Source of the DNA: a virus
Direction: 5' to 3' (one strand)
Length of the DNA: 28,174 nucleotides
Virus record (IMG/VR): IMGVR_UViG_3300049846_001114
Coordinates: 1 to 28,174 of that record
The position numbers and the translations under genes are program-made. Below the pieces are notes generated by a model that ran no database searches, was not told the origin of the DNA, and saw only the letters and a list, made by a program, of their open reading frames with translations. Below, piece by piece: positions 481-26,637 of the stretch (position 1 is the stretch's first letter; every line of letters starts with the position of its first letter).

Positions 481-524
481 AGAGTAGCACACATTTGAAC
501 ACACTTATCATGTCGTGTGGATAA
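481..524 (-). promoter_or_regulatory. Leaderless-type promoter with DnaA-box-like element
   Basis: On the minus strand a TTATCCACA box (516-524) is followed after 29 bp by an extended -10, TGC-TACTCT (hexamer 481-486), which ends six bases before the ATG at 474. It separates the fibre gene from the glycosyltransferase-like gene. Confidence 0.5.
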
Positions 525-525
525 C

Positions 526-3234
526 TTATGTGTTGGCGAAGAAGATAGCGTTGTATCGGTTTTGTGATGAACCACCTGTACCTGTGATGGCTGTCGAGTT
601 AATAGCTGCGGGGAGTATTTGAATGTGCGCCGCGTTGCTTGTTACCGTCGTTGATGCGATTCCTAAGAATGGCATGTGGCGAGATGATACGTTCGTTCCA
701 ATGATGGAACCCATTGTGCTTTGAGACATGCTCACGTGCATACCCGATAGAGAACCAATAGCTGCTCCTGCGGTGCTCATAGTCATAGCTTGCACGAGGT
801 AGTAGTTTCCTGGTGTGAGAGATGATGCACCAGTCTGTAGAAGAACAGCTCTTAGACCGTTGAAAGATGCTGAGATGTTTCCGTTTGTTCCGTAGTTGTT
901 CGCCGCGCTGTTGTTACCCCAATAGATGTAGTGGGTGTGAGCTGTCACAGAGTTCTGAGAGAGGCGAGCCGCAAACATCCATGTAGAGACACTAGAAAGT
1001 GTACCTGCGTTGTCGGTGTACAGTCCGTACATCATGCCAGCAGTCCACGAGCCTGTACCTGCCACGGTGTTGTACGATACTTGTCCTAGTACTTGGTCGT
1101 ATGATACATACTTGTCTACGAAGAATGGGGATATATACATGCTCATAGAAGAGACCGAGCCACCTGCTGTGGTGTTAGTCGCACCAGAGTACATAGACGA
1201 TGAAGCAAACGGGAGCGGCTCAGTAGGGAACATTTGAGCGGTGTAGTATGCAGGTGCGCCAATGCTAATTGTAGAGCCGTTGGTAGAGATAGATACGGCA
1301 CCTGTTGCGGAGAGAGATGAAGTAGCAGGAGCTGAGATGTTCACAACAGAACCGTTAGTACCTGAGAGGGTAAGGTTTATTCCCGAGTAGCCGATGGTAG
1401 AGCCTGATGCGGTGGTATTGCCTGCGGTATTGGCTCCCAAAAGGTTAACCCAGTTGTTCTCCGCTGCTGCGCCTGGTGCCGCTACTGATGCGGTGATGAT
1501 TGACCCTGCGGATGTTCCGAAGGTGACGTTGTTGGCGTTAGAGAAGCCTAGAGTGGTGAAGGAGAACGAACCGTTCGAGGCTGAGGCTACAGGGTTCACA
1601 CCCCCACCTGGAGCAACTGAGATAGCAAGACCATTCGAGTTAAGCGTGATGGATGCGTTTGTGGCTGATGTGCCAGTCCCCGCGTACCCGCGTCCGTCGA
1701 GCGAGATACCAGAGCTGTTCACCGTCCACGTCACATTGGATTGTGCGGTGTTAAGACCCACGGCGTCGTTAGATGCACGCGCGGTAGTCAATCCGTTGTG
1801 AGAGGCGTAGAGACCCTGTGTCCCTGTAGAGAATGAGATGCCGTTTGAGTTGGCGAACGTAGCTGTTTGGAAGGTGAACGAGCCGTTGGCGGCAGAAAGC
1901 GCCTGGTTGCTCTGTGAAGTGAGGGCGTTGTGACTTCCCACGATGGTGTGTGAGCCTCCTGTACCCGATGAAAGGGAGAGGGTGACACCGTTTAGGTTCG
2001 TGAAGGCGAGGCGAGCTACGGAACCTGATGTGGCACTGTCCGATACCGTCCATGAGCTGTTTGTGACCGTAGGGACGGTGTAGGAGCCTACGAGAGACCC
2101 GTTTGATGTGTAGAAAGATAGACCGTTTAAGTTCCCAAACGTAGCAGTCTGGAAGGCGAAGGAACCGTTTGAACCTGAGAGAGCCTGGTTGCTTTGAGAG
2201 GTGATGTACGGCCCTACCGAGACACTCACGCCACCAGAGTTCACCGTCACGCTTGCGTTAGTCGCACCCGTTGCCGTTCCTGCATAGCCTCGGGCGTCAA
2301 GAGAAATACCACTAGAGTTGACTGTCCAGGTTACGTTTGACTGCGCTGTGTTCAATCCTACCGCGTCGTTACTTGCGCGGGCTGTGGTGAGGTAGTTCGT
2401 CTGCACTGTTGCGTAGATACCTTGTGTACCTGTCGAGAACGATACACCGTTAGAGTTTGCAAAGGTTGCAGTTTGGAAAGTGAAGGAGCCGTTTGCTGCT
2501 GAAAGGGCTTGGTTAGACTGTGAAGTGAGGTAGTTTCCTACAGAGACCGAAACACCGTTAGAGTTGGCTGTCACTGATGCGTTGGTTGCGCCTGTCTGTG
2601 TTCCTACATATCCTCGCCCATCCAGGGAAATACCTGAGCTATTTACTGTCCATGTGACGTTAGACTGAGCGGTATTTAGTCCTACGGCATCGTTAGAAGC
2701 TCGGGCGGTAGTTAGATAGTCGGTGCGTACTGTAGCGTAGATGCCCTGAGTGCCAGTGGAGAAAGATACGCCGTTGCTGTTGGCAAACGTCGCGGTCTGA
2801 AATGTGAACGAACCGTTGGCCGCTGAGAGGGCTTGATTGCTTTGAGAGGTAAGTCCGTTGTGTGAGGCGGTGACTGTGGAACCGTTCGTGCCGAAGGTGA
2901 CACCGTTAGAGTTTGAGAACACGTACTCAGTCTGTGCAGGTACGTTCGGTACGGTGTACGAGCCAACCATCGAACCGTTTGAGGTGTAGAAGGAGAGGCC
3001 ATTTAAGTTGCCAAATGTCGCGGTGGAGTAAGAGAAACTACCGTTAGAACCTGAGAGTGCGGGTGTGACTCCTCCACCCGTGCCTGCACCGCCAACAATG
3101 GTTACAGAGTTAGCGTTCTGAGAAAGTGTAATGTTGTTACCACCAGCGAGAAAGTATGTGCCAGTGGATATGTTAGCAGTCGCGCCCTGGGTATTCCCTC
3201 CAATTTGGTGTGTGATTCGTTTGTGATAGGCCAT
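526..3234 (-). CDS. Long repeat-rich tail fibre or adhesin (902 aa)
   Basis: A low-complexity Ser/Asn/Gly/Thr protein with no enzyme motif. The N-terminus (MAYHKRITHQIGG) leads into many short blocks of the type SNGVSFSTGTQG or NGSTVTASHN. Three copies of a roughly 105-residue unit begin TSQSNQALSAANGSF and contain TARASNDAVGLNTAQSN; a shorter fourth unit has another ending. The last ~250 residues, from about YYTAQMFPTEP, are non-repetitive and richer in Tyr and Met, as expected of a receptor-binding tip. Role as a trimeric beta-rich fibre is inferred from composition and its place after the collagen-like gene (1-base gap). Repeats are near identical in protein but not in DNA (see findings). 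Confidence 0.75.
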   Translation of the reverse strand: MAYHKRITHQIGGNTQGATANISTGTYFLAGGNNITLSQNANSVTIVGGAGTGGGVTPALSGSNGSFSYSTATFGNLNGLSFYTSNGSMVGSYTVPNVPAQTEYVFSNSNGVTFGTNGSTVTASHNGLTSQSNQALSAANGSFTFQTATFANSNGVSFSTGTQGIYATVRTDYLTTARASNDAVGLNTAQSNVTWTVNSSGISLDGRGYVGTQTGATNASVTANSNGVSVSVGNYLTSQSNQALSAANGSFTFQTATFANSNGVSFSTGTQGIYATVQTNYLTTARASNDAVGLNTAQSNVTWTVNSSGISLDARGYAGTATGATNASVTVNSGGVSVSVGPYITSQSNQALSGSNGSFAFQTATFGNLNGLSFYTSNGSLVGSYTVPTVTNSSWTVSDSATSGSVARLAFTNLNGVTLSLSSGTGGSHTIVGSHNALTSQSNQALSAANGSFTFQTATFANSNGISFSTGTQGLYASHNGLTTARASNDAVGLNTAQSNVTWTVNSSGISLDGRGYAGTGTSATNASITLNSNGLAISVAPGGGVNPVASASNGSFSFTTLGFSNANNVTFGTSAGSIITASVAAPGAAAENNWVNLLGANTAGNTTASGSTIGYSGINLTLSGTNGSVVNISAPATSSLSATGAVSISTNGSTISIGAPAYYTAQMFPTEPLPFASSSMYSGATNTTAGGSVSSMSMYISPFFVDKYVSYDQVLGQVSYNTVAGTGSWTAGMMYGLYTDNAGTLSSVSTWMFAARLSQNSVTAHTHYIYWGNNSAANNYGTNGNISASFNGLRAVLLQTGASSLTPGNYYLVQAMTMSTAGAAIGSLSGMHVSMSQSTMGSIIGTNVSSRHMPFLGIASTTVTSNAAHIQILPAAINSTAITGTGGSSQNRYNAIFFANT
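1696..2706 (-). repeat. Three coding repeats with synonymous recoding
   Basis: The 29-residue core starting ARASNDAVGLN and ending SSGISLD is encoded at 1696-1782, 2296-2382 and 2620-2706. Protein copies are identical; the first two differ in 21 of 29 codons, all synonymous, including three TCN/AGY serine switches. Confidence 0.85.
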
Positions 3235-3235
3235 A

Positions 3236-4147
3236 CTATACGCCGATTACCCAGTTAGTACCGTCAGAGAAAAGGGTGATGGCTTCATACGAGAGTAGAG
3301 ACCAACTTGATTCTCCGTCGATTGTTTCGCCTCCCGTGGTGTTAATTGTAACACTTGCTGAGTGTGTATTCTTGATTGTGTAGAGGTTGGTATTCCCTAC
3401 TGCTGTAGGCATGGTTAGTACGTAGGCTGCGGGTATGACGTAATAGTAGTCAGTGTTCGATGTCGAGCCTGCGCTGGCCGAGCCAGTCATGGTAATAATA
3501 CTGCGTGCAATACCTGCTCCACCGCCCCCAGGGATGTTGAAGGTTACGTTTCCATGTCCGTCAGAAGAGATTACAACACCAGAGCCAGTGAGGTTGATGC
3601 TCTGTAGGTCGCCTTCAACCTTGGTTGCGGCGTTGAAGACTTCTACACTTTTTGATGCAGTTCTTTGAAGTGAGAGTAAGTTAGGCGTGTCTTTCAGGTC
3701 ATCGTAGGAGAGCTTCTTTTTAAGGAGCGGTATGAGCGTTTCGGTGGTAATAGTGGCGTGAGTGCCGTTTTCGCCACGTTCACCCTTCTCTCCTCGTTCT
3801 CCTTTGTCACCCTTCTCGCCTTTCTCACCTGGCAAGCCTCTTGGGCCGCGTGCCCCCGTCTTCCCGTCTACACCTGGAGTACCAGGGTCTCCTTTATCAC
3901 CTTTCGCACCTGGGTCACCCTTCTCGCCTTTCTCACCTGGCTCACCCTTGTCGCCTTTGTCTCCTTTAAGTCCCTTGACTGTAATAGTGGCAGTGTCGGC
4001 AACAGTCTGTACTTCTTCTGACTTCTTTTTAAGGCTAGAGGCAATCTCGTCTAGCTTCAACAGTTGTGCCTCAGCGATAGGCTCTATGTTGTTCTTTTCG
4101 GTTAACTGTATGAGGTGGTCTATTCCACGTTCGATGTTTTCATTCAT
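3236..4147 (-). CDS. Collagen-like virion protein (303 aa)
   Basis: Residues 59-128 form 23 uninterrupted Gly-X-Y triplets ([18 protein letters not shown] and so on), rich in Lys, Glu, Asp and Pro, which should fold as a collagen-type triple helix stabilised by K-G-E/D contacts. Before it is a helical 50-residue head with heptad character; after it come a linker and a Ser/Thr-rich domain (from about residue 205) ending [22 protein letters not shown], a common phage-fibre C-terminus. It sits between the ADP-ribosyltransferase-like protein (3-base gap) and the long fibre. Role as a fibre stalk or head decoration is inferred. Long plus-strand frames over the triplets are compositional shadows. 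Confidence 0.8.
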
Positions 4148-4150
4148 ACA

Positions 4151-7033: not shown

Positions 7034-7038
7034 AGGCT

Positions 7039-8536: not shown

Positions 8537-8539
8537 ACT

Positions 8540-14688: not shown

Positions 14689-14713
14689 AGTATACCACAT
14701 TTTTATTTGTCAA
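14689..14713 (-). promoter_or_regulatory. Promoter before scaffold-capsid genes
   Basis: Extended -10 TGG-TATACT (hexamer 14689-14694). A perfect TTGACA is at 14708-14713 but the spacer is only 13 bp, so the -35 may not be used in the usual way. Unlike the leaderless promoters it is followed by a leader of about 100 bases with a GCTGG/CCAGC stem. Confidence 0.5.
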
Positions 14714-14722
14714 ATGCGGTAT

Positions 14723-14768
14723 GTTGTGGGTTGGAAGGTACACGGGGGAGTACCCTACAGCCCACAAC
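14723..14768 (-). terminator. Nested stem-loop between structural genes
   Basis: GTTGTGGG pairs with CCCACAAC (8 bp) and encloses a second stem, GGTAC/GTACC. It lies between the 94-aa gene and the scaffold promoter. There is no U-tract, so it may be a processing or partial termination site. Confidence 0.4.
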
Positions 14769-14777
14769 ACACAGCAC

Positions 14778-15062
14778 TTATTCAGTGAGTGTGGCCATGA
14801 AATCTACAGCATCAGCATAATTCTTGTTAGAACGGTTCATTGCTCGGAGCATACTTAGATTTAGACCGATTGCCGCGCACTTGGCTCGAAGTTCTGTCTC
14901 AGAGAGTGTTGCATACTGAAAGGCGATGGTGTCTACGAGGTTAAGTACGTCCTCATTCAAGGTCTTTATCAATACCTGGCCCCCTTCGGTATTGTACAGT
15001 GCCGCGAGAGCGCCATACTTCTGTATGTCCTGCTGAACCACCTCTTTATCGTTCTTATTCAT
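14778..15062 (-). CDS. Small helical protein of unknown function (94 aa)
   Basis: Not recognised. Entirely helical by composition, starting MNKNDKEVVQQDIQKYGALAAL and ending NKNYADAVDFMATLTE; no Cys pairs or membrane segment. The start overlaps the end of the 128-aa gene by 8 bases, so the two are translated together. Position between portal and scaffold suggests an assembly or head-minor role, which is inference. Confidence 0.65.
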   Translation of the reverse strand: MNKNDKEVVQQDIQKYGALAALYNTEGGQVLIKTLNEDVLNLVDTIAFQYATLSETELRAKCAAIGLNLSMLRAMNRSNKNYADAVDFMATLTE

Positions 15063-17505: not shown

Positions 17506-17543
17506 ATTATATCACAGCATGTCAAATAGCTGTGTGGGGATAA
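17506..17543 (-). promoter_or_regulatory. Promoter with DnaA-box-like element
   Basis: TTATCCCCA (one mismatch to TTATCCACA, 17535-17543) is 23 bp upstream of TGA-TATAAT (hexamer 17506-17511). The leader to the 46-aa ORF would be very short. Confidence 0.5.
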
Positions 17544-17546
17544 CTC

Positions 17547-17654
17547 TTAAATGTTAATTGTGGGGTAAGTAGTAGCTGGTGGTGTTGCAGTTCCTACAGG
17601 ACGTATTGGTTTGCCGTCTTCCAGCTCGTAATCTCGTGATGCAGTTGTCCTCAT
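17547..17654 (-). CDS. 35-aa protein coupled to terminase
   Basis: Reads MRTTASRDYELEDGKPIRP and then a Pro/Thr/Ala tail ending TYPTINI. Its ATG overlaps the TerL stop as ATGA, so translation is coupled. No family recognised. The conserved-looking acidic centre and proline tail are compatible with a small virion or packaging accessory, but that is a guess. It could also be chance read-through of a short frame. Confidence 0.45.
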   Translation of the reverse strand: MRTTASRDYELEDGKPIRPVGTATPPATTYPTINI

Positions 17655-18928
17655 ATGCCTATTGTAGAGTAAATTGTATCATCCTCGTAGTCTTCCTCCT
17701 TCACATCCTTGACGGCATTGGGTTTGAGGAACGTAATGGCGTATCGTATCCCGTCCATAGAGTGGTCGTAGCCAGGCTTCGGGACGTTAATGATGTTCCC
17801 CTCCTTGTCCTCCATCCACGCATAGTTCTCCTGCTCTATCCTCGTGTTAACACTACGTTTTGTGTAGGAGATAGGCACAGACTGCACGACCTGGATGCCA
17901 TGCGTGATGCTATCAGGCCCTTTCTCCGCTGGAAGGATAAGGACGCCGTGCAAGGCGATTTCGTCAATGCTCTTAGGTTCAGAGCTGTCGGCTATAGTCG
18001 GGACGTTGCCAGGCTGCGCTTTGATGATGGCGGCAATTTGTGAGTTCAATAACCCTTTGGCGTACGCAATTTCATCCAGTATGTACCCACCGTTATACTC
18101 GTAAATATTACCGATGGATGTAGGGTCGTTGGTGTAACCGAAGTCTAGCCACCGTGCTACCAATCGAGCCTCGTGCGGCACGCTCTCAATCTCTCGCCAG
18201 TTTGTGTAAATCTTGCCACGGACTACTTCGGGGACTAGCCCTTTAATCATGTTGTAGTAGTGCGCGGGCTTTGTCTCTTTATACGCCTCGTATCTCTCTA
18301 CTGTTGCTGGAGTTATGTTAGCTACGTTGCAGGTGTAGTCAGTTCTGATGAAAAGGGTATCTTTGATGCTGTCTTTGAGCTTCGGTATGTAGAAGTCTGG
18401 AACACCTGACGGCAATAAGTCGAACCACCGCTTAATAATCCAATGTGACTTAGGAGGTGGGTTGAGCAATAGGATGATTGTTATATCACCCTTTACCGTA
18501 CGGATAGAGTCATCAAGCTGTGTAAAGTCTTCCTCTGGTATTTCGTCTGCTTCTTCAATGATGATGCAGTTGTAGTTGGCAAGGGACTTCAACTTAGCCT
18601 TCTGTCCCCCTGATGACTTACGAAAGCCCTTAGCGTTTATGGTGTTGATACCATACGTGACACTCATTCTGTCGTTGACCTGAAATGCACCCTCCTCTTC
18701 TGGTTCCTCGGCGATACGGTCTGTTATCTCACGGAAGATACTATCTCGAATGTCTCCAAGGATGTAACGCATGATGGCGCAACGGAAGTACTCTGGTGAG
18801 GCCAGCTTTGATTTAGCGAACTGAGAGGCGACGGTAGAACGTCCTGCACCACGTCCTCCCATGAGGATTATGTAGCGAGCTTTAGATGTGAACAGCTCCT
18901 TATATTCTTTATTCACTATCTGCTTCAT
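17651..18928 (-). CDS. terL: Terminase large subunit (425 aa)
   Basis: The ATPase-nuclease that pumps DNA into the prohead. Walker A is GGRGAGRST at residues 24-32, with Arg at position 30 where P-loops usually have Lys, a variant seen in some terminases. Walker B is CIIIEEADE (121-129), with the catalytic acid pair, and the coupling motif is TIILLLNPP (151-159). The C-terminal RNase H-like nuclease has WLDFGYTNDP near 265 and TIADSSEP near 315 as metal-binding Asp sites. Length is usual for PBSX/Terminase_3-type enzymes. The start overlaps the TerS end by 20 bases; the stop overlaps the next small gene. Confidence 0.92.
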   Translation of the reverse strand: MKQIVNKEYKELFTSKARYIILMGGRGAGRSTVASQFAKSKLASPEYFRCAIMRYILGDIRDSIFREITDRIAEEPEEEGAFQVNDRMSVTYGINTINAKGFRKSSGGQKAKLKSLANYNCIIIEEADEIPEEDFTQLDDSIRTVKGDITIILLLNPPPKSHWIIKRWFDLLPSGVPDFYIPKLKDSIKDTLFIRTDYTCNVANITPATVERYEAYKETKPAHYYNMIKGLVPEVVRGKIYTNWREIESVPHEARLVARWLDFGYTNDPTSIGNIYEYNGGYILDEIAYAKGLLNSQIAAIIKAQPGNVPTIADSSEPKSIDEIALHGVLILPAEKGPDSITHGIQVVQSVPISYTKRSVNTRIEQENYAWMEDKEGNIINVPKPGYDHSMDGIRYAITFLKPNAVKDVKEEDYEDDTIYSTIGI

Positions 18929-19316
18929 CGTCTGAGAAGTCTTTGAAGACTATGGTGTTCCCCTTGATTGGCTTATCGTCTGTGGTTATGTCGGCCTTCT
19001 CCCTCATACCGTGGTTAGCTGAGAGTATGAGCTTGGCAATGGTTGGGTTGTAGTCCCCTGAAAGCCCTTTGTTTATGAGCCTTTCTTTCTGCTCCCCTCT
19101 TATCTTGTCTAAAGCGTCCGAGAAGTCAGGATGGTCTTTCTCCCATAGGTACAATGATGAGCGAGCTACGTTGATGAAACGGGCAAAGCCTTCCATGGTA
19201 GGACTCTTTACTACCAGCCTACCCTTATCGTCGTATTCGTCTTGACACCACTCCAAGTAATGGTCTACTGCTGCAATGTATTCTTCCTTAAATTCGGATG
19301 TTCTCCCCAAAGTCAT
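18909..19316 (-). CDS. terS: Terminase small subunit (135 aa)
   Basis: DNA-recognition subunit of the packaging motor. Sequence MTLGRTSEFKEEYIAAVDHYLEW is followed by a helix-turn-helix-like stretch, TMEGFARFINVARSSLYLWEKDH (about 35-60), a central oligomerisation region with GLSGDYNPTIAKLIL, and an acidic C-terminus (FKDFSDDEADSE) that likely contacts TerL. I start it at 19316 rather than at an upstream in-frame ATG because TGG-TATAAT lies exactly six bases before this ATG, which would place the mRNA 5' end at the codon itself. Confidence 0.85.
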   Translation of the reverse strand: MTLGRTSEFKEEYIAAVDHYLEWCQDEYDDKGRLVVKSPTMEGFARFINVARSSLYLWEKDHPDFSDALDKIRGEQKERLINKGLSGDYNPTIAKLILSANHGMREKADITTDDKPIKGNTIVFKDFSDDEADSE

Positions 19317-19322
19317 AGCTGC

Positions 19323-19331
19323 ATTATACCA
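19323..19331 (-). promoter_or_regulatory. Leaderless promoter of terminase genes
   Basis: A consensus extended -10, TGG-TATAAT (hexamer 19323-19328), six bases before the TerS ATG; no Shine-Dalgarno in the gap (GCAGCT). The likely -35 region lies in the end of the HNH gene and is weak. Confidence 0.65.
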
Positions 19332-19334
19332 CAC

Positions 19335-19789: not shown

Positions 19790-20040
19790 ATAAGGAACAA
19801 ACCTAGCAGTATAGCTGGCAACAACGAGACCCAAAAGAAGACCCAACTGATACCTACATCTCTGTTTATCAAGAACTCCGCTACAGAGAATACAAATGCT
19901 AGGTATAGCGCGATTGCTATAAGAAACAAACCAAGTTCGGCTGATGTCTTCCCGATTTCCTCGCAATACTTAATCCCTTCATGGATAATACAATCTCTGC
20001 TATTGACGGGGCCAGACATTACAATAGGCATTGGATACAT
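19780..20040 (-). CDS. Two-helix membrane protein, holin-like in size (86 aa)
   Basis: Starts MYPMPIVMSGPVNSRDC, then two membrane segments, ELGLFLIAIALYLAFVFSVA (about 35-57) and WVFFWVSLLPAILLGLFLIWH (about 66-86), joined by a short charged loop (INRDVG). Small two-span proteins near packaging genes are often holins, but no endolysin is present here, so that is only a possibility. The frame stays open upstream to 20169, but TGG-TATAGT ends six bases before this ATG and a terminator sits in the extension, so I start here. Confidence 0.6.
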   Translation of the reverse strand: MYPMPIVMSGPVNSRDCIIHEGIKYCEEIGKTSAELGLFLIAIALYLAFVFSVAEFLINRDVGISWVFFWVSLLPAILLGLFLIWH

Positions 20041-20046
20041 AAATTT

Positions 20047-20086
20047 ACTATACCACACAAAAGAAAAGCCCCTGTGGTTATCCACA
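20047..20086 (-). promoter_or_regulatory. Leaderless promoter with DnaA-box-like element
   Basis: TGG-TATAGT (hexamer 20047-20052) six bases before the ATG at 20040. A perfect TTATCCACA (plus strand, 20078-20086) is 25 bp upstream and forms one arm of the terminator hairpin. Confidence 0.6.
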
Positions 20087-20153: not shown

Positions 20154-20159
20154 GTTGGT

Positions 20160-20168
20160 AGTATAACA
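20160..20168 (-). promoter_or_regulatory. Extended -10 promoter
   Basis: TGT-TATACT within GTTATACTAC, a 10-mer also present at 25908-25917 and 26082-26091 in the same orientation. Confidence 0.5.
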
Positions 20169-20210
20169 AGAAAGCGAGGCTCTGCGTTCTGTGTGCTATG
20201 ATTACTACCT

Positions 20211-21001: not shown

Positions 21002-21010
21002 ATGTGATAC

Positions 21011-21019
21011 ATATTAGCA
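21011..21019 (-). promoter_or_regulatory. Extended -10 promoter of HNH gene
   Basis: TGC-TAATAT (hexamer 21011-21016), nine bases before the ATG at 21001. No Shine-Dalgarno in the leader. Confidence 0.4.
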
Positions 21020-21053
21020 TTTGCACTGATGTGTCGCAACCGTGCTCCTTGTT

Positions 21054-21080
21054 CCCCTTGTTCGATTATCGAGCAGGGGG
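21054..21080. other. 12-bp perfect stem-loop
   Basis: CCCCTTGTTCGA pairs with TCGAGCAGGGGG (three G-U on the plus strand) around a TTA loop, directly after the 56-aa gene. No U-tract on either side, so a processing or insulating structure is as likely as a terminator. Confidence 0.5.
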
Positions 21081-21295
21081 ATGGGAGCGCGGCTCAATCG
21101 GTGTAGCCAATGCTCTTGTCGGTATGAGTGATTTCCCCATCCCTCTTTAATTGTCTTTTGTAAAAGTAGCGCATCATGCGGTGGAACACTGTGCGTACCT
21201 TTTTATTCTTCCCAGCTCGACACTGTTTACACGAGCAACCAGTATGGATACGTTGTTGCAACATACTTTTTGTTACTTAGTAATGGGAGCGCGGC
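21081..21295. repeat. 13-bp direct repeat flanking the 56-aa gene
   Basis: ATGGGAGCGCGGC occurs at 21081-21093 and 21283-21295, 202 bp apart, bracketing the small gene. Confidence 0.6.
21094..21264 (-). CDS. 56-aa Cys-rich basic phage protein
   Basis: Reads MLQQRIHTGCSCKQCRAGK, then a basic helix (RTVFHRMMRYFYKRQLKRDG) and ends SIGYTD. The CxCxxC followed by RAGxxK, an Arg/Lys helix and a GYTD end is a pattern I recall from many small conserved tailed-phage proteins of unknown role, probably metal- and nucleic-acid-binding. Start chosen as the only ATG giving the full motif; no Shine-Dalgarno or clear -10. It sits between tRNA-Asp and the HNH gene. Confidence 0.7.
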   Translation of the reverse strand: MLQQRIHTGCSCKQCRAGKNKKVRTVFHRMMRYFYKRQLKRDGEITHTDKSIGYTD

Positions 21296-21300
21296 ACGTG

Positions 21301-21374
21301 CGGGAAAGATGGGAATTGAACCCACGGCCTATCGCTTGACAAGCGATTGCTCTAACCGACTGAGCTACTTCCCC
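21301..21374 (-). tRNA. tRNA-Asp (GTC)
   Basis: Seven-bp acceptor stem GGGGAAG/CTTTCCC (one G-U), D-arm AGCTCAGTCGGTTAGAGC, anticodon arm ATCGC-TTGTCAA-GCGAT with anticodon GTC, and T-arm with GGTTCAATTCC. Discriminator G as in tRNA-Asp. No CCA is encoded, so the host must add it. The gene lies in the late-reading strand just after several RNA hairpins. Confidence 0.95.
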
Positions 21375-21379
21375 AAGAA

Positions 21380-21400
21380 ATTCTCGCGTTAAGCGAGAAT
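21380..21400 (-). other. 8-bp hairpin before tRNA-Asp
   Basis: ATTCTCGC/GCGAGAAT with a five-base loop, six bases from the tRNA 5' end and followed by TTTCTT on the minus strand. Could guide tRNA 5' processing or act as a weak terminator. Confidence 0.5.
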
Positions 21401-21408
21401 CTCAGGAA

Positions 21409-21541
21409 CCCAAACCTTTTTTGAGGTTTGGGCACAGAAAGTGGCACATGGGCCCGTGGTGTCAAAGGTAACATTCCAGCCTTATAACCTAGGAGATGCC
21501 AGTTCGACTTCCACAAACCTGAACTACTTTCTGTGCTCAAA
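21409..21541 (-). ncRNA. Structured RNA element upstream of tRNA-Asp
   Basis: A long stem pairs 21427-21442 with 21526-21541 (15 of 16 bp; core GCACAGAAAGT) around ~83 bases that contain an AGTTC/GAACT hairpin and a GGGCCC palindrome. The inner end of the long stem shares bases 21427-21432 with a second hairpin, CCCAAACC/GGTTTGGG (21409-21432), so the two compete. No ORF fits. May be a leader switch, tRNA-processing element or small RNA. Confidence 0.45.
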
Positions 21542-21605
21542 CTTCAAACAGTGAGGGGAGCACGTATGCACCCCCCGTCTGCGTAGGTTCTATTGACCCG
21601 TGGCG

Positions 21606-21857
21606 TCACTCTGGAGGTGGTTTGCATCGCTTGCATTGGCAGATATCGTCTTCGATATCCTCTATGAAGTCGAACTCCACCTGGCTGTCTTCGAGGAACT
21701 GTACGTCCTGCGCTACACCGTTGGCGTAACACGTGGAGGAACAGTAGACCTTGCCGTGGTCGTGGTCTGGATACTTTACGAGCTTCAACGAGCCCGAGCA
21801 GCAATCACAACTACGTTTATCAGTGGTGACGTACGGGTACGGCCTGTCAAGGTGCAT
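21606..21857 (-). CDS. Zinc-finger-like protein (83 aa)
   Basis: Starts MHLDRPYPYVTTDKRSCDCC, with CxCC, then VYCSSTCYANG and a final CQCKRCKPPPE, so three close cysteine pairs that could hold one or two zinc ions, separated by an acidic stretch (DSQVEFDFIEDIEDD). No family recognised. The start is chosen for its clear Shine-Dalgarno (AGAGGAG, seven bases before ATG), a rare case here; a TTG 30 bases upstream is possible. A TATAAT about 100 bases upstream would give a structured leader. Confidence 0.65.
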   Translation of the reverse strand: MHLDRPYPYVTTDKRSCDCCSGSLKLVKYPDHDHGKVYCSSTCYANGVAQDVQFLEDSQVEFDFIEDIEDDICQCKRCKPPPE

Positions 21858-21961
21858 GGGACACTCCTCTTGCTTCCCAAGCCCCAAACAATGAAGTTTA
21901 GAGGCTTTCTAGGAAACGTCCCTTTTTGCGAAGGGCTCGGGAGGCGAGAGGTTCTTCCCTT

Positions 21962-21967
21962 ATTATA
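21962..21967 (-). promoter_or_regulatory. -10 box in a hairpin upstream of zinc-finger gene
   Basis: TATAAT lies at one side of an inverted repeat (TATACAC...GTGTATA, about 21963-22003) that follows the membrane-protein gene. The leader to the ATG at 21857 would be about 100 bases. Confidence 0.35.
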
Positions 21968-22005
21968 CACCCTCCCCAGACTGGTAGAGAATGGGGTGTG
22001 TATAA

Positions 22006-22272
22006 CTATTCAGGCTTTGCTAATTCGAGGTTACTACAGTATTGCGTGTCTATAGGCGGCACGAACCACATGAGCGGAAATACCATCGACAATAACACGT
22101 TATCAACTGATGCAACGGAGATGGATTTATTACACTCATATGTTCCAGTAGCCATTCGATTCACAGCAATCCCACCAAATAAACCGATTGTTACCAGCTG
22201 AAAGATAATCCATCCCGCCAAGAACCGAACCGCTATACTACGCTCTGCAACCACATCTATTGTGTATCCCAT
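22006..22272 (-). CDS. Two-helix membrane protein (88 aa)
   Basis: Two hydrophobic segments, VRFLAGWIIFQLVTIGLFGGIAV (about 15-37) and NVLLSMVFPLMWFVPPI (about 58-74), joined by a polar loop with one Cys. Not recognised. The ORF starts nine bases after the 57-aa gene stop and belongs to the same operon. A membrane role in takeover or lysis cannot be told apart from sequence. Confidence 0.6.
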   Translation of the reverse strand: MGYTIDVVAERSIAVRFLAGWIIFQLVTIGLFGGIAVNRMATGTYECNKSISVASVDNVLLSMVFPLMWFVPPIDTQYCSNLELAKPE

Positions 22273-22281
22273 ATCAGGTGT

Positions 22282-22455
22282 TTACTTATTATCAGGCACA
22301 GCTATTTCCAGGATAGCCTTCTTGTTGTCCGCAAGCCAGTTAAAAAACGTGTCTACACTCATGTGCTTGTTTAGCTTCTTGGCTACCGCTCCACGTAGGA
22401 TGTTAAAGCGTTGGTGGGTCGTGGCCTTGGTGATGTAGGACTTGTATTTGGGCAT
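22282..22455 (-). CDS. 57-aa basic protein of unknown function
   Basis: Reads MPKYKSYITKATTHQRFNIL, then VAKKLNKHMSVDTFFNWLADNKKAILEI; basic first half, amphipathic second half. Starts one base after the HTH gene stop with AAAGAAG as possible ribosome site. Not recognised; may be nucleic-acid-binding. Confidence 0.6.
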   Translation of the reverse strand: MPKYKSYITKATTHQRFNILRGAVAKKLNKHMSVDTFFNWLADNKKAILEIAVPDNK

Positions 22456-22456
22456 A

Positions 22457-22648
22457 CTACTTCTTTAACCTATAAACATAATCCAGTGACTTCCCTCTCT
22501 TCACGTACTCGCCTTGTACGTTAAAGCCTAGTCGGCGTAGTTCGTATACGATAGCGCCCAGGCGGGTGATGTACTTCCTCAGTGCTTGATTGCGGGACAC
22601 GTAGCCGTGCTTTTGTAGGTGGCTGTGTGCCCATTCTAGTTGGGTCAT
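22457..22648 (-). CDS. Small winged-helix/HTH protein (63 aa)
   Basis: Starts MTQLEWAHSHLQKHGYVSRN; the pattern (helix, turn with V-S-R-N-Q-A, helix LGAIVYELRRLGFNVQG, then a YVKRGKSLDYVYRLKK wing) is a typical phage winged helix-turn-helix of the HTH_39 sort. It starts one base after the NinB-like gene, so it may be a regulator within the accessory operon or a DNA-binding partner of the recombinase. Confidence 0.7.
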   Translation of the reverse strand: MTQLEWAHSHLQKHGYVSRNQALRKYITRLGAIVYELRRLGFNVQGEYVKRGKSLDYVYRLKK

Positions 22649-22649
22649 G

Positions 22650-23069
22650 TTATTTCATTAAGTATCCCGCCGCCTGTGGGTCAGGGAGGGGGACGTTGGT
22701 AAGTGCACAAATGCGGTCTAAGTATTCCCCAAACTCTATCTTTGAAAGTGAGGTGGTACTTGCGGGTATCTTTCTTTCTATCTCCTTCCCGTTGATGTGT
22801 ACCTTGATGGTACGAGGCGGGAGGAACTCTCTTTTAAAGAACTCGTGTAGGGCTTGCGGGTAGTCTCCTGTTTCCTTGGCTATGACGTCCAGGTAGAGCC
22901 AGTAGTAGTTGTTCTGCGTGTTGGTGCGTTCTAGTTTTGGTAGCTCTACGCGTACAACCTTTCCGTTATGCTGTTGCACAAATTGCTTCCAGAGAGCGAA
23001 GTGGGTTTCTGATTTCCACTTCAACCCTCCGAAAGTCTTTGTGTCGAGCGTTGGTAAGAACGCTTCCAT
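22650..23069 (-). CDS. NinB (Orf)-like recombination mediator (139 aa)
   Basis: The motif RTNTQNNYYWLYLDVIAKETG corresponds to the R(S/T)xxQNxxxWxxLxD block of lambda NinB/Orf, and STTSLSKIEFGEYLDRI to its STSxMxxxEFxELLxxI block; length is near the 146 aa of lambda Orf. Orf-type proteins bind ssDNA and SSB and help load recombinases. The next gene upstream encodes an SSB-like protein two bases away, which fits. The stop is followed at once by the HTH gene. Family assignment is by motif recall. Confidence 0.7.
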   Translation of the reverse strand: MEAFLPTLDTKTFGGLKWKSETHFALWKQFVQQHNGKVVRVELPKLERTNTQNNYYWLYLDVIAKETGDYPQALHEFFKREFLPPRTIKVHINGKEIERKIPASTTSLSKIEFGEYLDRICALTNVPLPDPQAAGYLMK

Positions 23070-23071
23070 AT

Positions 23072-23680
23072 CTAGAAGGGAATGTCACCAGACTTTATCT
23101 CATCGTGTCCGTTCATGCCCACGCTAGTACGTGTCTTGTACTCTTGTGATGAACGCATCTTTTCAGCAATGAACTGAGGGAGGGAGTTGATTACTTCCTC
23201 GGTTGCTGTGTCCACGTCTACCAGGCGAGACTTGTTGAACTGCTCTGGTGCGGTGATGCCTTTTAGAAGTGGGGAAGCGGACTTGATGTTGGCGTACACA
23301 CTGTCCCCTTTCGTGACGTGCACGACGTTTAGGAGGCAAGCGGTGCCAAGGAGCTTCTCCAGGTCAAAGGTACGAGCCTCTTCATCGGTGAGGGTCGCGC
23401 CAATCATTCCTTCCACTACTGGACGGAGGTTAGACTTCTCTCCCATTGAATAGGTGAACTCGCGGGAGATGGTGTATGGCTTCTCCTGCTCGCCTTCCTT
23501 GAATACTTTGCGTTCATTGCAAAGCTCAAAGCCTAGACGGATTTTGTGAGAGAGCCTCTTCTGTCCTTCCCACTCTGTCTCTACCGAACCAATGTTGATG
23601 ATTTCGATAAAGCGAGCTACGTGTGTTCCTGCTGGTACTGGGTCAAACTGCTTCTTCTCTGGTGCTGGTGCTGGTCGCAT
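23072..23680 (-). CDS. ssDNA-binding-like protein with DIPF tail (202 aa)
   Basis: Central block GQKRLSHKIRLGFELCNER, YTISREFTYSMGEKSNLRPVVEGMIG and LLGTACLLNVVH matches a widespread phage family with an OB-like fold usually placed with replication and recombination genes. The C-terminus ends GDIPF, the acidic-Pro-Phe tip by which SSBs recruit partner proteins. Together with the NinB-like neighbour it suggests coating of ssDNA during recombination or replication. No Shine-Dalgarno. Confidence is lower for the exact family than for the function class. Confidence 0.65.
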   Translation of the reverse strand: MRPAPAPEKKQFDPVPAGTHVARFIEIINIGSVETEWEGQKRLSHKIRLGFELCNERKVFKEGEQEKPYTISREFTYSMGEKSNLRPVVEGMIGATLTDEEARTFDLEKLLGTACLLNVVHVTKGDSVYANIKSASPLLKGITAPEQFNKSRLVDVDTATEEVINSLPQFIAEKMRSSQEYKTRTSVGMNGHDEIKSGDIPF

Positions 23681-23689
23681 AAATGTATG

Positions 23690-23935
23690 TTAGTAGTGTA
23701 ATTCGCCCTCTGGTAATGGAGAGTATTCTGCGGGAGCTTCGAGTTGCCACTCGTCCCCCGCGTCCCTCTCTCCTATGTAGTCACCTCGCCCTGTTATCTT
23801 GTCCCACATGCGGGCGTGATAGTCGTCCTTTCGTTTAGACTTTTCTTTGTGGTCACGAGCAAACTCTGCGAGGCGGTTCGTCATTTGACGTTCGACTGCT
23901 TGTTCAGGCGTTATCATATTCGTCTTTAGATTCAT
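23690..23935 (-). CDS. 81-aa charged protein of unknown function
   Basis: Reads MNLKTNMITPEQAVERQM, then a basic region (ARDHKEKSKRKDDYHARMW) and an acidic tail (EAPAEYSPLPEGELHY). Not recognised. Its start overlaps the previous gene by 32 bases; an internal ATG (MITPEQ, 23917) with a 14-base overlap is an alternative. Part of the accessory operon. Confidence 0.5.
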   Translation of the reverse strand: MNLKTNMITPEQAVERQMTNRLAEFARDHKEKSKRKDDYHARMWDKITGRGDYIGERDAGDEWQLEAPAEYSPLPEGELHY

Positions 23936-24116
23936 AATCCGCTATAGCTTGCTCTAGTCGGCGGGTGACAATAGCGGCGGTACTGGTAATGTCATCAGGC
24001 ACAAAACACGGGGAGTCTTCGATACAGACTATCTCGGGCTGGTCTTTGAATACTAAGTGAGCGTCGCCTTCTGGGTACACTACGACTGCTACACGGTATT
24101 TAATTTCGTTGTTCAT
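23904..24116 (-). CDS. 70-aa acidic protein of unknown function
   Basis: Reads MNNEIKYRVAVVVYPEGDAHLVFKDQPE, then SIEDSPCFVPDDITSTAAIVTRRLEQAIADYE; one small beta domain and a final helix. Its start overlaps the 52-aa gene stop as ATGA. Not recognised; conserved-looking, compact, likely soluble. Confidence 0.6.
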   Translation of the reverse strand: MNNEIKYRVAVVVYPEGDAHLVFKDQPEIVCIEDSPCFVPDDITSTAAIVTRRLEQAIADYESKDEYDNA

Positions 24117-24271
24117 GCTACTAGATAAGCTAGTAATGTGGGAGCAAGAACGGTTGCAAAGAGTGATATAGGCATGATGTGCTCTAGACTCTTGCGGGCA
24201 AGTTCTTTTAGCTCCATGTCTTTCTTGAACTGTGGGTACGTGAAGTACGGTTTAAGTATTAGTTGTTCCAT
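24113..24271 (-). CDS. 52-aa single-pass membrane peptide
   Basis: Reads MEQLILKPYFTYPQFKKDME, a basic helix, then a C-terminal hydrophobic segment (IMPISLFATVLAPTLLAYLVA, residues 32-52) ending at the stop. Such tail-anchored peptides are common early phage products. Missed by a 60-aa cutoff. The ATGA overlap with the next start links it to the operon. Confidence 0.5.
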   Translation of the reverse strand: MEQLILKPYFTYPQFKKDMELKELARKSLEHIMPISLFATVLAPTLLAYLVA

Positions 24272-24286
24272 AATCTGTTTTTAATG

Positions 24287-24328
24287 CCCTCGGGCGCACA
24301 CACAGGAAAGCATGTGCGCACCCGAAGG
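24287..24328 (-). other. 16-bp stem-loop in the leader of the accessory operon
   Basis: CCTTCGGGTGCGCACA pairs with TGTGTGCGCCCGAGGG over all 16 positions (several G-U) around a 10-base loop, 15 bases before the 52-aa ATG. No U-tract. Very stable; likely an mRNA stabiliser, attenuator or protein-binding site. Confidence 0.6.
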
Positions 24329-24355
24329 TTCCTGTTAATTCGCACTTATGGGGTA

Positions 24356-24430
24356 TGTCAACGTGCCTATATATATACTACACCCGTTATATATATGTGC
24401 AAGGGGTCGTATATGGTCGGTGTGGATAAC
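24356..24430. promoter_or_regulatory. AT-rich control segment with DnaA box
   Basis: Between 24356 and 24410 lie two runs of alternating TATATA, and a perfect TGTGGATAA at 24421-24429 adjoins the stop of the 91-aa gene. TTGACA on the minus strand (24356-24361) has no good -10 at 17 bp. It could be a promoter or an unwinding element. Confidence 0.35.
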
Positions 24431-24706
24431 TCATTTACCTTTAGTCCTGGCAAAGAAAGCGTGCGCCCAGGAGGTGTAGGGAGAACGTCTATCGTTATAT
24501 GAAGATGTCACGGTATGTATCAAAGCTCGCAATGAGTCTGTATCACAAGGTCGTACGTTCATGTTTATGCGTTTTGCTACTCTCGTTGGTGTCCATGCTG
24601 GGTCGTTGATAAGTGACACTATCTCTTGAATAACAAGTTTGCGCTCTTCTTTTTTTGAAAGGGGATTTATTGCAAATTGCAGTGACGCAGTTGTTACTTT
24701 TTGCAT
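24431..24706 (-). CDS. 91-aa HTH-like protein of unknown function
   Basis: Reads MQKVTTASLQFAINPLSKKEERK, then a helix-turn-helix-like pair (LVIQEIVSLINDPAWTPTRVAKRINMNVR, about 25-53) and a basic tail (HAFFARTKGK). Possibly a DNA-binding regulator. I start at 24706 because TGC-TATAGT is nine bases upstream; a longer frame (to 24757) passes through the promoter and DnaA box. Confidence 0.5.
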   Translation of the reverse strand: MQKVTTASLQFAINPLSKKEERKLVIQEIVSLINDPAWTPTRVAKRINMNVRPCDTDSLRALIHTVTSSYNDRRSPYTSWAHAFFARTKGK

Positions 24707-24715
24707 ACATGATTG

Positions 24716-24756
24716 ACTATAGCAAAGGAGAGGAGGAGGGGAAGGGGTTATCCACA
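24716..24756 (-). promoter_or_regulatory. Promoter with DnaA-box-like element
   Basis: TTATCCACA (plus strand, 24748-24756) is 26 bp upstream of TGC-TATAGT (hexamer 24716-24721). The spacer is a pyrimidine-rich tract (CCCTTCCCCTCCTCCTCTCC). Confidence 0.55.
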
Positions 24757-24757
24757 A

Positions 24758-25036
24758 TCAGATACTTTTAAGGAAGTCGAGTTGTGATTGATGCTCGTTC
24801 CAAATAGTTTGCGCCGCTTTTAATTCACGGCTGGCATCGTTGGTGTTGTGGACTTTGTACTTCTCGTACATCTGCATGTAGTGACAACGAGTACAGTAGT
24901 CCCACTGTGAAAAGTAGTAGGGTGCGTTCAACTGTTTCGACCTTAATACGTCGTGGACTCTTGTCTCGGTCATGTGGTTACAACGTGGGCACTGGATGCC
25001 AACGCCTGTTACCGTGTGTCTCTTCTTCTTCTTCAT
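24758..25036 (-). CDS. 92-aa zinc-ribbon protein
   Basis: Begins MKKKKRHTVTGVGIQCPRCNH and has a second pair in WDYCTRCHYMQMYE, so CxxC...CxxC zinc-ribbon ligands separated by 32 residues, then a helix with conserved-looking TNDASRELKAAQTIWNEH. No family name recalled. The frame opens further upstream (to a GTG at 25243), but that extension is unlike protein and crosses two hairpins, so the ATG at 25036 is preferred. Confidence 0.55.
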   Translation of the reverse strand: MKKKKRHTVTGVGIQCPRCNHMTETRVHDVLRSKQLNAPYYFSQWDYCTRCHYMQMYEKYKVHNTNDASRELKAAQTIWNEHQSQLDFLKSI

Positions 25037-25420
25037 ATCGTTTATATCATTCCTTTTAATTGTATGGCCACCCGATATTGAGGTCGGGTGTTGATGTAGT
25101 ATTAGTGCTTTGTATGAGATGTTAGTGGACAGCTTGCGCTGCATTCCTGAAAGCCGCTTGTTTTGAGGCAGCGGCACCCCAGACCACCCAATTCGGAACG
25201 GGAGACTTTCGTCTATCGCTAGGTTAACTCTAACGAGCTTCACCCTTTATTACAGCACCCACGGCGGTTCCTAGATACATGAGTGCATGGCTTTTTAATT
25301 CACCAGAAGCCTATAACTGGCTCATACTTATAGTGTGGAGACTCTCGCTTGTCTGCACAGCTAGGGAGCTATCACACTAATACGTTGTTACGGACTATTA
25401 GCTCTTATCCTTCAAAGAAC
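25037..25420 (-). other. Gene-free stretch with several hairpins
   Basis: No ORF convinces me here. It contains CACCCGA/TCGGGTG (25069-25090), GCCGCT/AGCGGC (25153-25175) and, near 25340-25410, interlocking pairs such as AGTGTG/CACACT and CTAATA/TATTAG. A TATAAG lies at 25328-25333 on the minus strand. This may be a long leader or an unrecognised structured RNA upstream of the zinc-ribbon gene. Confidence 0.35.
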
Positions 25421-25449
25421 AACACAAAAACCCACTCGTGAGAGCGGGT
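25421..25449 (-). terminator. Intrinsic terminator after 32-aa gene
   Basis: ACCCGCTC-TCAC-GAGTGGGT (one mismatch) followed by TTTTT GTGTTG on the minus strand, directly abutting the stop codon of the 32-aa ORF. Confidence 0.75.
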
Positions 25450-25548
25450 CTAAGTGATGGTGCCTACAAAGGCATGGAAGTCGCCAACAGAGTTAGCAGC
25501 TTTCATGCATTCAACACCTGTAAGGTATCTTACCTTTGTATTTACCAT
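25450..25548 (-). CDS. 32-aa leaderless microprotein
   Basis: Reads MVNTKVRYLTGVECMKAANS then VGDFHAFVGTIT. It forms a complete tiny unit: TGG-TATACT six bases before the ATG, 33 codons, and a terminator touching the stop. No family. The sequence is not low-complexity and looks protein-like. Too short for standard gene finders. Confidence 0.5.
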   Translation of the reverse strand: MVNTKVRYLTGVECMKAANSVGDFHAFVGTIT

Positions 25549-25554
25549 ACCGCA

Positions 25555-25590
25555 AGTATACCAGACTTCACGGAAACTACATGTGGATAA
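25555..25590 (-). promoter_or_regulatory. Leaderless promoter with DnaA-box-like element
   Basis: TGG-TATACT (hexamer 25555-25560) six bases before ATG; a perfect DnaA-type 9-mer (TGTGGATAA on plus, 25582-25590) is 21 bp upstream. Confidence 0.6.
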
Positions 25591-25596
25591 CTCCCC

Positions 25597-25625
25597 AAAA
25601 CAAAAGCCCCCTGTACAAAGGGCTT
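25597..25625 (-). terminator. Intrinsic terminator after 63-aa gene
   Basis: AAGCCC/GGGCTT stem with a 10-base loop (25604-25625), then TTTTGTTTTGG on the minus strand. Confidence 0.7.
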
Positions 25626-25711
25626 CTGTGTCTGGTGACCATGTCCGTACTTTTCCTCCTATGGTAGCCGCACGGACTCCTATACTTTACCAGGCGGGGT
25701 GCGTTACGCAA

Positions 25712-25903
25712 CTATTCCCTATCCTCAGGCCATTCTATTTCATCGTAACAATCTTGACAGTATGCGTCCAGGTATATTGACTGGAAACCGCTCTCTATCA
25801 CTTCTACGGGTATGCCGCACATCACGCACGGTAGTACCGTTCCCTTAGGAACCCAATGTACATCTAAGTCTCTTGTTTGATATGGGGAGGGTATCTCATC
25901 CAT
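25712..25903 (-). CDS. 63-aa CxxC protein, leaderless
   Basis: Reads MDEIPSPYQTRDLDVHWVPK, then LPCVMCGIPVEVIESG and YCQDCYDEIEWPEDRE: two CxxC pairs 23 residues apart, a zinc ribbon. TATACT ends six bases before the ATG; an intrinsic terminator is about 90 bases after the stop. Likely an early regulatory or nucleic-acid-binding protein; family unknown. Confidence 0.65.
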   Translation of the reverse strand: MDEIPSPYQTRDLDVHWVPKGTVLPCVMCGIPVEVIESGFQSIYLDAYCQDCYDEIEWPEDRE

Positions 25904-25907
25904 GAGG

Positions 25908-25919
25908 GTAGTATAACGC
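25908..25919 (-). promoter_or_regulatory. Conserved promoter element GCGTTATACTAC
   Basis: -10 TATACT (25910-25915) six bases before the 63-aa ATG. The 12-mer GTAGTATAACGC (plus) is repeated exactly at 26082-26093. Confidence 0.55.
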
Positions 25920-25944
25920 GAAAAGGAGGGCGCGAGCTCTCCTT
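25918..25944 (-). terminator. Intrinsic terminator after 24-aa ORF
   Basis: Nine-bp stem AAGGAGAGC/GCCCTCCTT with a TCGC loop, then TTCG; the T-tract is short. It lies immediately upstream of the next promoter. Confidence 0.5.
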
Positions 25945-25972
25945 AATGCGTGACTATTGCTCCCTTAGCCGC

Positions 25973-26047
25973 CTATACGCTTGTGCTTCGGGAGGTTGGG
26001 TTATCTCTTCCGTAGTACACCCAATCGACTTCTACGGCGTATCTCAT
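25973..26047 (-). CDS. 24-aa leaderless microprotein candidate
   Basis: Reads MRYAVEVDWVYYGRDNP and ends SRSTSV. TATACA lies six bases before the ATG and a second promoter (TATACT) 37 bases upstream; a terminator follows. The beta-strand-like VEVDWVYYG is protein-like, but the length makes chance possible. Confidence 0.35.
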   Translation of the reverse strand: MRYAVEVDWVYYGRDNPTSRSTSV

Positions 26048-26053
26048 GCGGAC

Positions 26054-26093
26054 TGTATAGTGCCCACGTGAGAGTGTAAGAGTAGTATAACGC
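26054..26093 (-). promoter_or_regulatory. Two -10 boxes before 24-aa ORF
   Basis: TATACA at 26054-26059, six bases from the ATG, and TATACT at 26084-26089 inside the repeated 12-mer GCGTTATACTAC. Confidence 0.45.
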
Positions 26094-26119
26094 AAAAATG
26101 ACCCGCGGTAGGCAGGTCA
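26094..26119 (-). terminator. Intrinsic terminator in divergent region
   Basis: TGACCTGC/GCGGGTCA stem (one mismatch) with a five-base loop, followed by TTTTTGCG on the minus strand. Confidence 0.6.
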
Positions 26120-26149
26120 TCGTTGCTTAAGGAAGACACTAACATTACT

Positions 26150-26194
26150 AGTCACTTGGGTGACTCACATATAGTAGTTTAAACACGTGTTTAA
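26150..26194. promoter_or_regulatory. Hairpin and 16-bp perfect palindrome (operator candidate)
   Basis: AGTCAC-TTGG-GTGACT (26150-26165) is followed by the perfect palindrome TTAAACACGTGTTTAA (26179-26194), in the region between minus- and plus-strand genes, ten bases before the DnaA-like box of the plus-strand promoter. A 16-bp two-fold symmetric site is a typical dimer operator. Confidence 0.5.
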
Positions 26195-26203
26195 TGCAAG
26201 TGT

Positions 26204-26244
26204 TGTGGATAAACGACATAGACAAGGCAAAATGTAGGTATACT
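26204..26244 (+). promoter_or_regulatory. Leaderless promoter with DnaA-box-like element
   Basis: TGTGGATAA (26204-26212), then 26 bp, then TATACT (26239-26244), six bases before the ATG at 26251. Confidence 0.6.
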
Positions 26245-26250
26245 AGGTTG

Positions 26251-26592
26251 ATGCTCTATCAACCACCAGAACAGCTCGTCAAGGAAGTCGCGGAAGTAGT
26301 ACGCCTTGCAACACGTCAAAGGATGCTCGAACGCGCCATTGACATAAAGTGGGAGGAACTTATGGAGGCACAGATAGAAGTACCCATAGTCTCCAAGTAC
26401 ACCATACGCAAAGACTTCTTAAGAAAGCTCATCATGCGCGAATATCCTGATGCCATGAAATACTTTGACTACTTCGCGGGTGAGGCTATCCAGTTCAAGA
26501 CACTCGGGAGAGTAAACGAGCAACGAATAGGATACGGCGTTACTGCTCGCATAAACAAGGTTCTCACAGACCACTTTGATGAATGGTGGTGA
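26251..26592 (+). CDS. 113-aa protein of unknown function
   Basis: Starts MLYQPPEQLVKEVAEVVRLATRQ; mostly helical, with a basic middle (YTIRKDFLRKLIMREYPDAM) and end GYGVTARINKVLTDHFDEWW. Not recognised; could be DNA-binding. The upstream ATG of the open frame (26194) is rejected because a promoter lies between, with TATACT six bases before this ATG. First gene of the plus-strand segment. Confidence 0.65.
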   Translation: MLYQPPEQLVKEVAEVVRLATRQRMLERAIDIKWEELMEAQIEVPIVSKYTIRKDFLRKLIMREYPDAMKYFDYFAGEAIQFKTLGRVNEQRIGYGVTARINKVLTDHFDEWW

Positions 26593-26593
26593 G

Positions 26594-26637
26594 TTATCCC
26601 CACTGTCAAGATTGACGCTCCTATTTAATGGTATTGT
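26594..26637 (+). promoter_or_regulatory. Leaderless promoter with DnaA-like box
   Basis: TTATCCCCA (one mismatch, 26594-26602), 29 bp, then TGG-TATTGT (hexamer 26632-26637) six bases before the ATG at 26644. Confidence 0.5.

Follow-up and report, generated by a model that had tools for sequence, protein, structure and literature searches.

Genes of the viral window and its relatives

The window, meaning the entire stretch of 28,174 bases analysed here, is an IMG/VR virus record that carries genes for a large terminase subunit of the Terminase_3 type (17651-18928, minus strand), a gp3-like small terminase, an SU10-like portal and adaptor, tail fibres, and NinB-like and HNH proteins. The sole domain resembling a DNA-binding regulator among the window proteins scanned was HTH_39, found in a 63-aa winged-helix protein (22457-22648, minus strand) that is a candidate alternative reader of the sites described below. 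Within the gene of a 902-aa protein, repeats spaced 282-324 bp apart (1343-3060) suggest repeated domains, and a 23-nt inverted repeat (91%) with arms 83 nt apart adjoins a tRNA-Asp gene (21420-21548).

No nucleotide match to the window was found in the annotated phage collection. With the large terminase subunit (TerL) as query, 80 relatives were retrieved from IMG/VR, and further relatives were found in genomes, namely on a Moraniibacteriota contig, on a Fermentibacteria contig and in Chryseobacterium. Since a GenBank relative, MW202577.1, is a circular genome of 39.6 kb, the window is probably partial. The Moraniibacteriota contig also bears ftsZ, SHMT and cas1; there, the TerL relative is adjoined by cas1 and by the gene of a 1346-aa protein that weakly matches a Cas12f1-like TNB (L445, 348-6002). 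In L091, short repeats in 9-10 copies could be a CRISPR array.

DnaA-box-like sites in the window

The word TTATCCMCA occurs eight times in the window, against 0.24 occurrences expected, and none of 100 shuffles reached eight. Six copies are TTATCCACA and two are TTATCCCCA, and the eight coordinates given in the original prediction are all exact. The six TTATCCACA copies conform to the E. coli DnaA consensus TTWTNCACA and the two TTATCCCCA copies deviate from it at one position. Scanning with this consensus adds a single window site, TTATACACA at 21997-22005 (minus strand), a ninth, variant box that lies 29 bp upstream of a perfect TATAAT (21962-21967). By 9-mer statistics the word ranks top (6 copies, 0.30 expected) but is matched by a second, unrelated 9-mer of the window. 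The count is thus not extraordinary, and the case rests on placement.

In line with the earlier claim that the boxes are intergenic or at gene ends, all eight fall in intergenic DNA, compared to 9.1% of 9-mer positions by our gene map (p ~5e-9). When the two TTATCCCCA copies are set aside, seven of the eight sites that differ from TTATCCACA by one mismatch are coding, TTATACACA alone being intergenic. The boxes stand singly, ~330 bp to 17 kb apart, and no origin-type box cluster was found in the window.

Boxed promoters and their spacing

The boxes accompany promoters with an extended -10 (TGnTATAmT) and a poor -35, and the distance from the end of the box to the -10 is 21, 23, 25, 25, 26, 26, 29 and 29 bp across the eight sites. 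A TG stands one base before the -10 hexamer in six of the eight boxed promoters, and a start codon follows the -10 by 5-7 nt in six (including the box at 516, where the -10 is weak), so that the transcripts should be leaderless. Five boxes point TTATCC-first toward the promoter and three (20078, 24748 and 26204) the opposite way, which confirms that both orientations are used.

At the right end of the window, the box at 26594-26602 (plus strand, TTATCCCCA) lies directly 3' of the stop codon of the gene starting at 26251 and 29 bp from TGgTATTGT (26632-26637), which is followed by a leaderless ATG at 26644; the product of this gene is a 373-aa protein of a DNA repair exonuclease family. The 26251 gene (113 aa) has its own leaderless ATG behind TATACT (26239-26244), 26 bp from a TTATCCACA box at 26204-26212 (minus strand) that faces away from this plus-strand promoter. 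Two further TTATCCACA boxes serve short leaderless genes: the one at 25582-25590 (minus strand) is 21 bp from TGgTATACT (25555-25560) and the ATG at 25548 (32 aa), and the one at 24748-24756 (plus strand) is 26 bp from the minus-strand TGcTATAGT (24716-24721) and the ATG at 24710 (55 aa). The TTATCCACA box at 24421-24429 (minus strand) is 25 bp from TATATA (24390-24395), behind which a leaderless ORF was not found. The plus-strand TTATCCACA box at 20078-20086 is 25 bp from the minus-strand TGgTATAGT (20047-20052), with a leaderless ATG at 20040 (86 aa). This box forms one half of an 18-bp perfect palindrome, CCTGTGGTTATCCACAGG (20069-20086), next to which a T-rich stretch follows on the minus strand; because of this arrangement, the palindrome may act as an intrinsic terminator shortly before the 20040 promoter. 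At 17535-17543 (minus strand), a TTATCCCCA box lies 23 bp from TGaTATAAT (17506-17511), and here the ATG (~17496) comes 9 nt after the -10 and opens a 46-codon ORF before the portal gene. Finally, the TTATCCACA box at 516-524 (minus strand) is 29 bp from a weak minus-strand -10, TACTCT (481-486), with a leaderless ATG at 474, 6 nt on. The genes behind the boxes, namely the exonuclease-family gene (26644), small unknown ORFs, the ORF before the portal and the left-end gene, indicate that DNA-metabolism and structural regions are both covered.

The original prediction placed seven of the eight boxes 21-29 bp from a -10. A strict rule was applied in which the -10 has to match TATAAT at five or more of six positions, or at four or more if preceded by TGn, and an ATG or GTG has to follow within 5-9 nt and open an ORF of 30 codons or more. 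Six boxes qualify, with starts at 26251 and 26644 on the plus strand and at 25548, 24710, 20040 and 17496 on the minus strand, whereas the boxes at 516, with its poor TACTCT, and 24421, with no leaderless ORF, drop out. Only 3.4% of intergenic positions satisfy the same rule, and the resulting p value (~4e-8) is partly post hoc because the 21-29 bp range was read off the same sites.

The box does not appear to stand in for a weak -35. This idea was rejected, as the -35 is just as weak in promoters that have no box. Promoters with and without a box occur side by side: that of the small terminase gene, a strong leaderless one with an extended -10 (TGgTATAATgcagctATG, 19294-19328), lacks an exact box up to 60 bp away. 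A GTTATACTAC-type repeat, present in three copies on the minus strand (20155-20177, 25905-25927 and 26079-26101), represents a second promoter-like class that lacks a DnaA box; one copy is leaderless (start 25903).

Recurrence of the pattern in other viruses

The whole IMG/VR collection was searched for a composite pattern made of the box, 15-35 bp, TGNTATANT, 5-7 nt and ATG. It was found in 83 stretches with the forward box (GTTATCCACA) and in 74 with the reversed box, against 6 for the scrambled word GTTACACCTA and 19 when the same box was sought 100 bp further upstream (115-135 bp). Grouped by sequence, these correspond to 50 forward clusters and 48 reversed clusters, each set containing a few loci from the window and from hosts, compared to 3 scrambled and 9 distance-shifted clusters; the box is therefore 5-fold rarer by clusters when placed 100 bp further from the promoter. 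(An earlier, looser scan with at least 120 matches served only to find examples.) A leader of 6 nt dominates, in 36 of 50 forward and 31 of 48 reversed clusters where a third would be expected for each length, which argues that the matches are real leaderless promoters. What had been named as refuting the idea, namely that coding DNA has the box just as often or that its distances are random, was thus not seen, neither in the window, where all boxes are intergenic, nor across IMG/VR, where there is a several-fold excess at promoter distance.

Across the matches, spacing ranges from 18 to 38 bp, and both orientations occur. Forward boxes favour 30-32 bp (21 of 50), and their distances are non-uniform (p 0.003), so the 21-29 bp rule, which describes the window, is not exact elsewhere. 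Reversed boxes cluster near 18-19, 23-25, 28-29 and 37-38 bp, a weakly significant preference (p 0.02); clean 10.5-bp phasing of these boxes was not significant (p 0.05), and a 4.75-bp signal in them is unexplained.

The clearest second case is a 33.7-kb virus, 3300030943_000105 (G003), with eight boxes, six of which lie 25-32 bp upstream of TGnTATAmT. Its large terminase belongs to Terminase_6, as opposed to Terminase_3 in the window, and the only match that the two share is the portal, at a weak 23% identity. The boxes were thus acquired independently in unrelated phages. A 125-aa gene is shared with L261, a relative of G003 with 84% identity in TerL; the flanks of the box in its promoter align between the two, and the box itself is flipped in place (GTCAAGTATtttaggTTATCCACAgaccggCTCAATTTT and GTCAAGTATGTGGATAACttCTCAATTTT). 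A box that is flipped and yet kept is what one would predict if a protein-binding site were under selection. The pattern, then, extends beyond the window phage to phages whose terminases are unrelated, with the box in either orientation. Within the family of the window itself, most TerL relatives have no boxes, which makes the boxes lineage-specific; no exact box was found before the portal gene in these relatives, where extended -10 leaderless promoters are present.

Other box-bearing phages differ in how the sites are arranged. G218 has many boxes away from promoters, three or four of them inside ORFs, and G004, G005, G008 and G012 contain tandem box clusters that resemble origins. Tandem TTATCCACA boxes similar to those of DnaA-dependent origins were noted in L240 (1045-1065 and 7531-7551), L241 (15170-15253), L243 and L244. 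Among isolates searched for a host, only streptococcal prophages were returned, for two box promoters; in prophages of S. suis (L096, 6443-6498) and S. ictaluri (L172, 9515-9570), an exact box lies 31 bp upstream of TGnTATAAT near repressor genes.

Candidate hosts

The host of the window phage is likely Patescibacteria-like, as we infer from the TerL relative on the Moraniibacteriota contig, the lack of Shine-Dalgarno sequences and the position of the -10 relative to starts. None of 26 window ORFs has a Shine-Dalgarno-like site. In the TerL relatives, TATAAT-like hexamers are sharply overrepresented at a distance of exactly 6 nt upstream of the start; the same leaderless peak is clear in two of four Patescibacterial genomes sampled. 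The reversed composite pattern was found 7 times in 380 Patescibacterial genomes (control 0), and two of these matches precede the same gene, by sequence a XerC/D-type tyrosine recombinase. The forward pattern was found twice in 192 Patescibacterial genomes, against one control match. Moraniibacteriota DnaA has the canonical domain IV motif GGRDHTTVIHAC, and TTATCCACA boxes are located near dnaA. The presumed hosts would accordingly be able to read the box word, and a few of their own leaderless promoters may make use of it.

Host DnaA and other candidate readers of the box

Based on these patterns, the boxes are, somewhat more probably than not, binding sites for host DnaA that have been selected at phage promoters. 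The placement of a regulatory site around the -35, as first proposed, is supported, in that the boxes lie around the -35 of leaderless promoters or slightly further from the start. Host DnaA also appears to be the likeliest reader, since the consensus recurs with unrelated terminases, at some Patescibacterial promoters and upstream of dnaA. As in DnaA-regulated promoters, the box is found within the promoter region at a non-random distance, and as with CtrA sites in phages, the sites are enriched over controls and intergenic or at promoters. In the proposed mechanism, the one DnaA box of each promoter would end 18-38 bp before the -10, where RNA polymerase contacts the -35 or slightly further upstream; DnaA bound there would modulate polymerase loading, and phage transcription would then follow host DnaA level or nucleotide state. 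This suggests that such viruses tie gene expression to the replication state of the host. The broader idea of a widespread and repeatedly acquired design, with host DnaA boxes at the leaderless promoters of phages that infect Patescibacteria-like bacteria and DnaA as a global regulator of phage gene expression, is put forward more tentatively, with a likelihood that we place a little short of even.

Whether bound DnaA would activate or repress is nearly balanced, with recruitment and activation slightly favoured. The preference of forward boxes for 30-32 bp, a suggestion of phasing by one helical turn and the fact that the box leaves the -10 and the start uncovered would speak for activation, whereas the use of both orientations and variable spacing would favour steric repression. 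A spacing of 18-38 bp combined with both orientations would indeed be unusual for a contact-dependent activator and counts against one. Further points against the DnaA reading are the lack of boxes in most TerL relatives, a -35 that is no weaker with a box than without, the forward count of 2 against 1 control match in Patescibacteria, and the HTH_39 protein common to three of the most box-rich phages.

Alternatively, a regulator encoded by the phage, such as the HTH_39 protein (22457-22648), could read the box, with the resemblance to DnaA sites being a coincidence or acquired mimicry. We regard this as unlikely, although it is the strongest of the alternatives. Of 32 phage records tested, three contain an HTH_39 homologue, and all three (the window, G007 with eight boxes and G218 with nine) are box-rich; the window proteins scanned yielded no second domain of a regulator type. 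This correlation is post hoc, however, and the domain is absent from G003. Phage regulators usually diverge in their sites, yet the DnaA consensus is common to phages with unrelated terminases and to host promoters. Being missing from G003, and with the boxes of G218 often off promoters and in three or four cases within ORFs, HTH_39 is a serious but lesser candidate. A phage-encoded DnaA domain IV (PF08299) is absent from the window and from nearly all box-rich phages, and no LuxR-type GerE domain was found. Two related, box-bearing phages show, at L217 (G008, 29924-30046) and L216 (G009, 14693-14815), weak DnaA C-terminal matches below the cut-off with one in-frame TAG, possibly a decayed or recoded DnaA-like gene.

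Less probable again is a role of the boxes in phage DNA replication or in titrating host DnaA, with their nearness to promoters due to the coincidence of promoters and intergenic space. Their intergenic location would be expected in that case, and the tandem clusters of G004, G005, G008 and G012 look like origins. The boxes of the window, on the other hand, are single and mostly far apart, their distance from the -10 is not random even when intergenic DNA alone is considered, and a box 100 bp further from the promoter is 5-fold rarer by clusters. It is improbable that the box is a core promoter element, that is, a -35-like site of a host sigma factor with no separate reader protein: it does lie near a -35 that is weak in its canonical form, but sigma elements have fixed spacing and orientation, so that 18-38 bp in both orientations largely refutes this reading, and leaderless promoters of this family that have no box share the same -10. 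Chance, with a striking word picked out by eye, is by far the least probable, for although another 9-mer of the window equals the count (6 against 0.30), all eight boxes are intergenic, six are at promoters, the DnaA consensus led to a ninth site, and the independent recurrence in IMG/VR with its controls refutes it at that level.

Comparison with known systems

If host DnaA does read these sites, phage transcription would be linked to replication initiation, and the boxes would help in studying how genes are regulated in phages whose Patescibacteria-like hosts are largely uncultured. The promoter signature of box, extended -10 and leaderless ATG could flag such phages in metagenomes. Sensing of the host cell cycle by phages via a host regulator is already documented for CtrA in Alphaproteobacteria. 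DnaA is nearly universal, and a CtrA-like trick via DnaA could therefore work much more widely.

On chromosomes, DnaA acts as a transcription factor (of dnaA, nrdAB, mioC, rpoH, sda and gcrA) that activates or represses depending on its nucleotide and level (PMC8203912). These genes likewise have TTATCCACA boxes in their promoter regions, but they are located on the chromosomes of model bacteria rather than in phage genomes and often have several boxes. For phage lambda, host DnaA is cited as binding the phage DNA and affecting transcription from pR/pO (PMC3985674, PMC8203912), which resembles the occupancy of a phage promoter by host DnaA predicted here. In lambda, as cited there, the boxes are situated downstream of the promoter, close to ori-lambda, and act in transcriptional activation of replication, whereas those described here precede the -10 of many promoters throughout the genome.

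No paper on DnaA boxes at leaderless phage promoters was found in a literature search whose coverage left out most subscription papers and preprints. The nearest precedent, by analogy, is the CtrA sites of alphaproteobacterial phages ('lytic deferment'), which are concentrated in terminal repeats or gap regions and were demonstrated by EMSA and reporters (PMC9437464). The same study scanned 499 phages and saw no positional asymmetry of DnaA sites, which counts against a DnaA reading. The two systems share sites for a host cell-cycle regulator in intergenic promoter regions, their presence in several independent lineages and a proposed sensing of host state. In contrast to the CtrA phages, the viruses described here carry a predicted DnaA site, a single one per promoter, at leaderless promoters.
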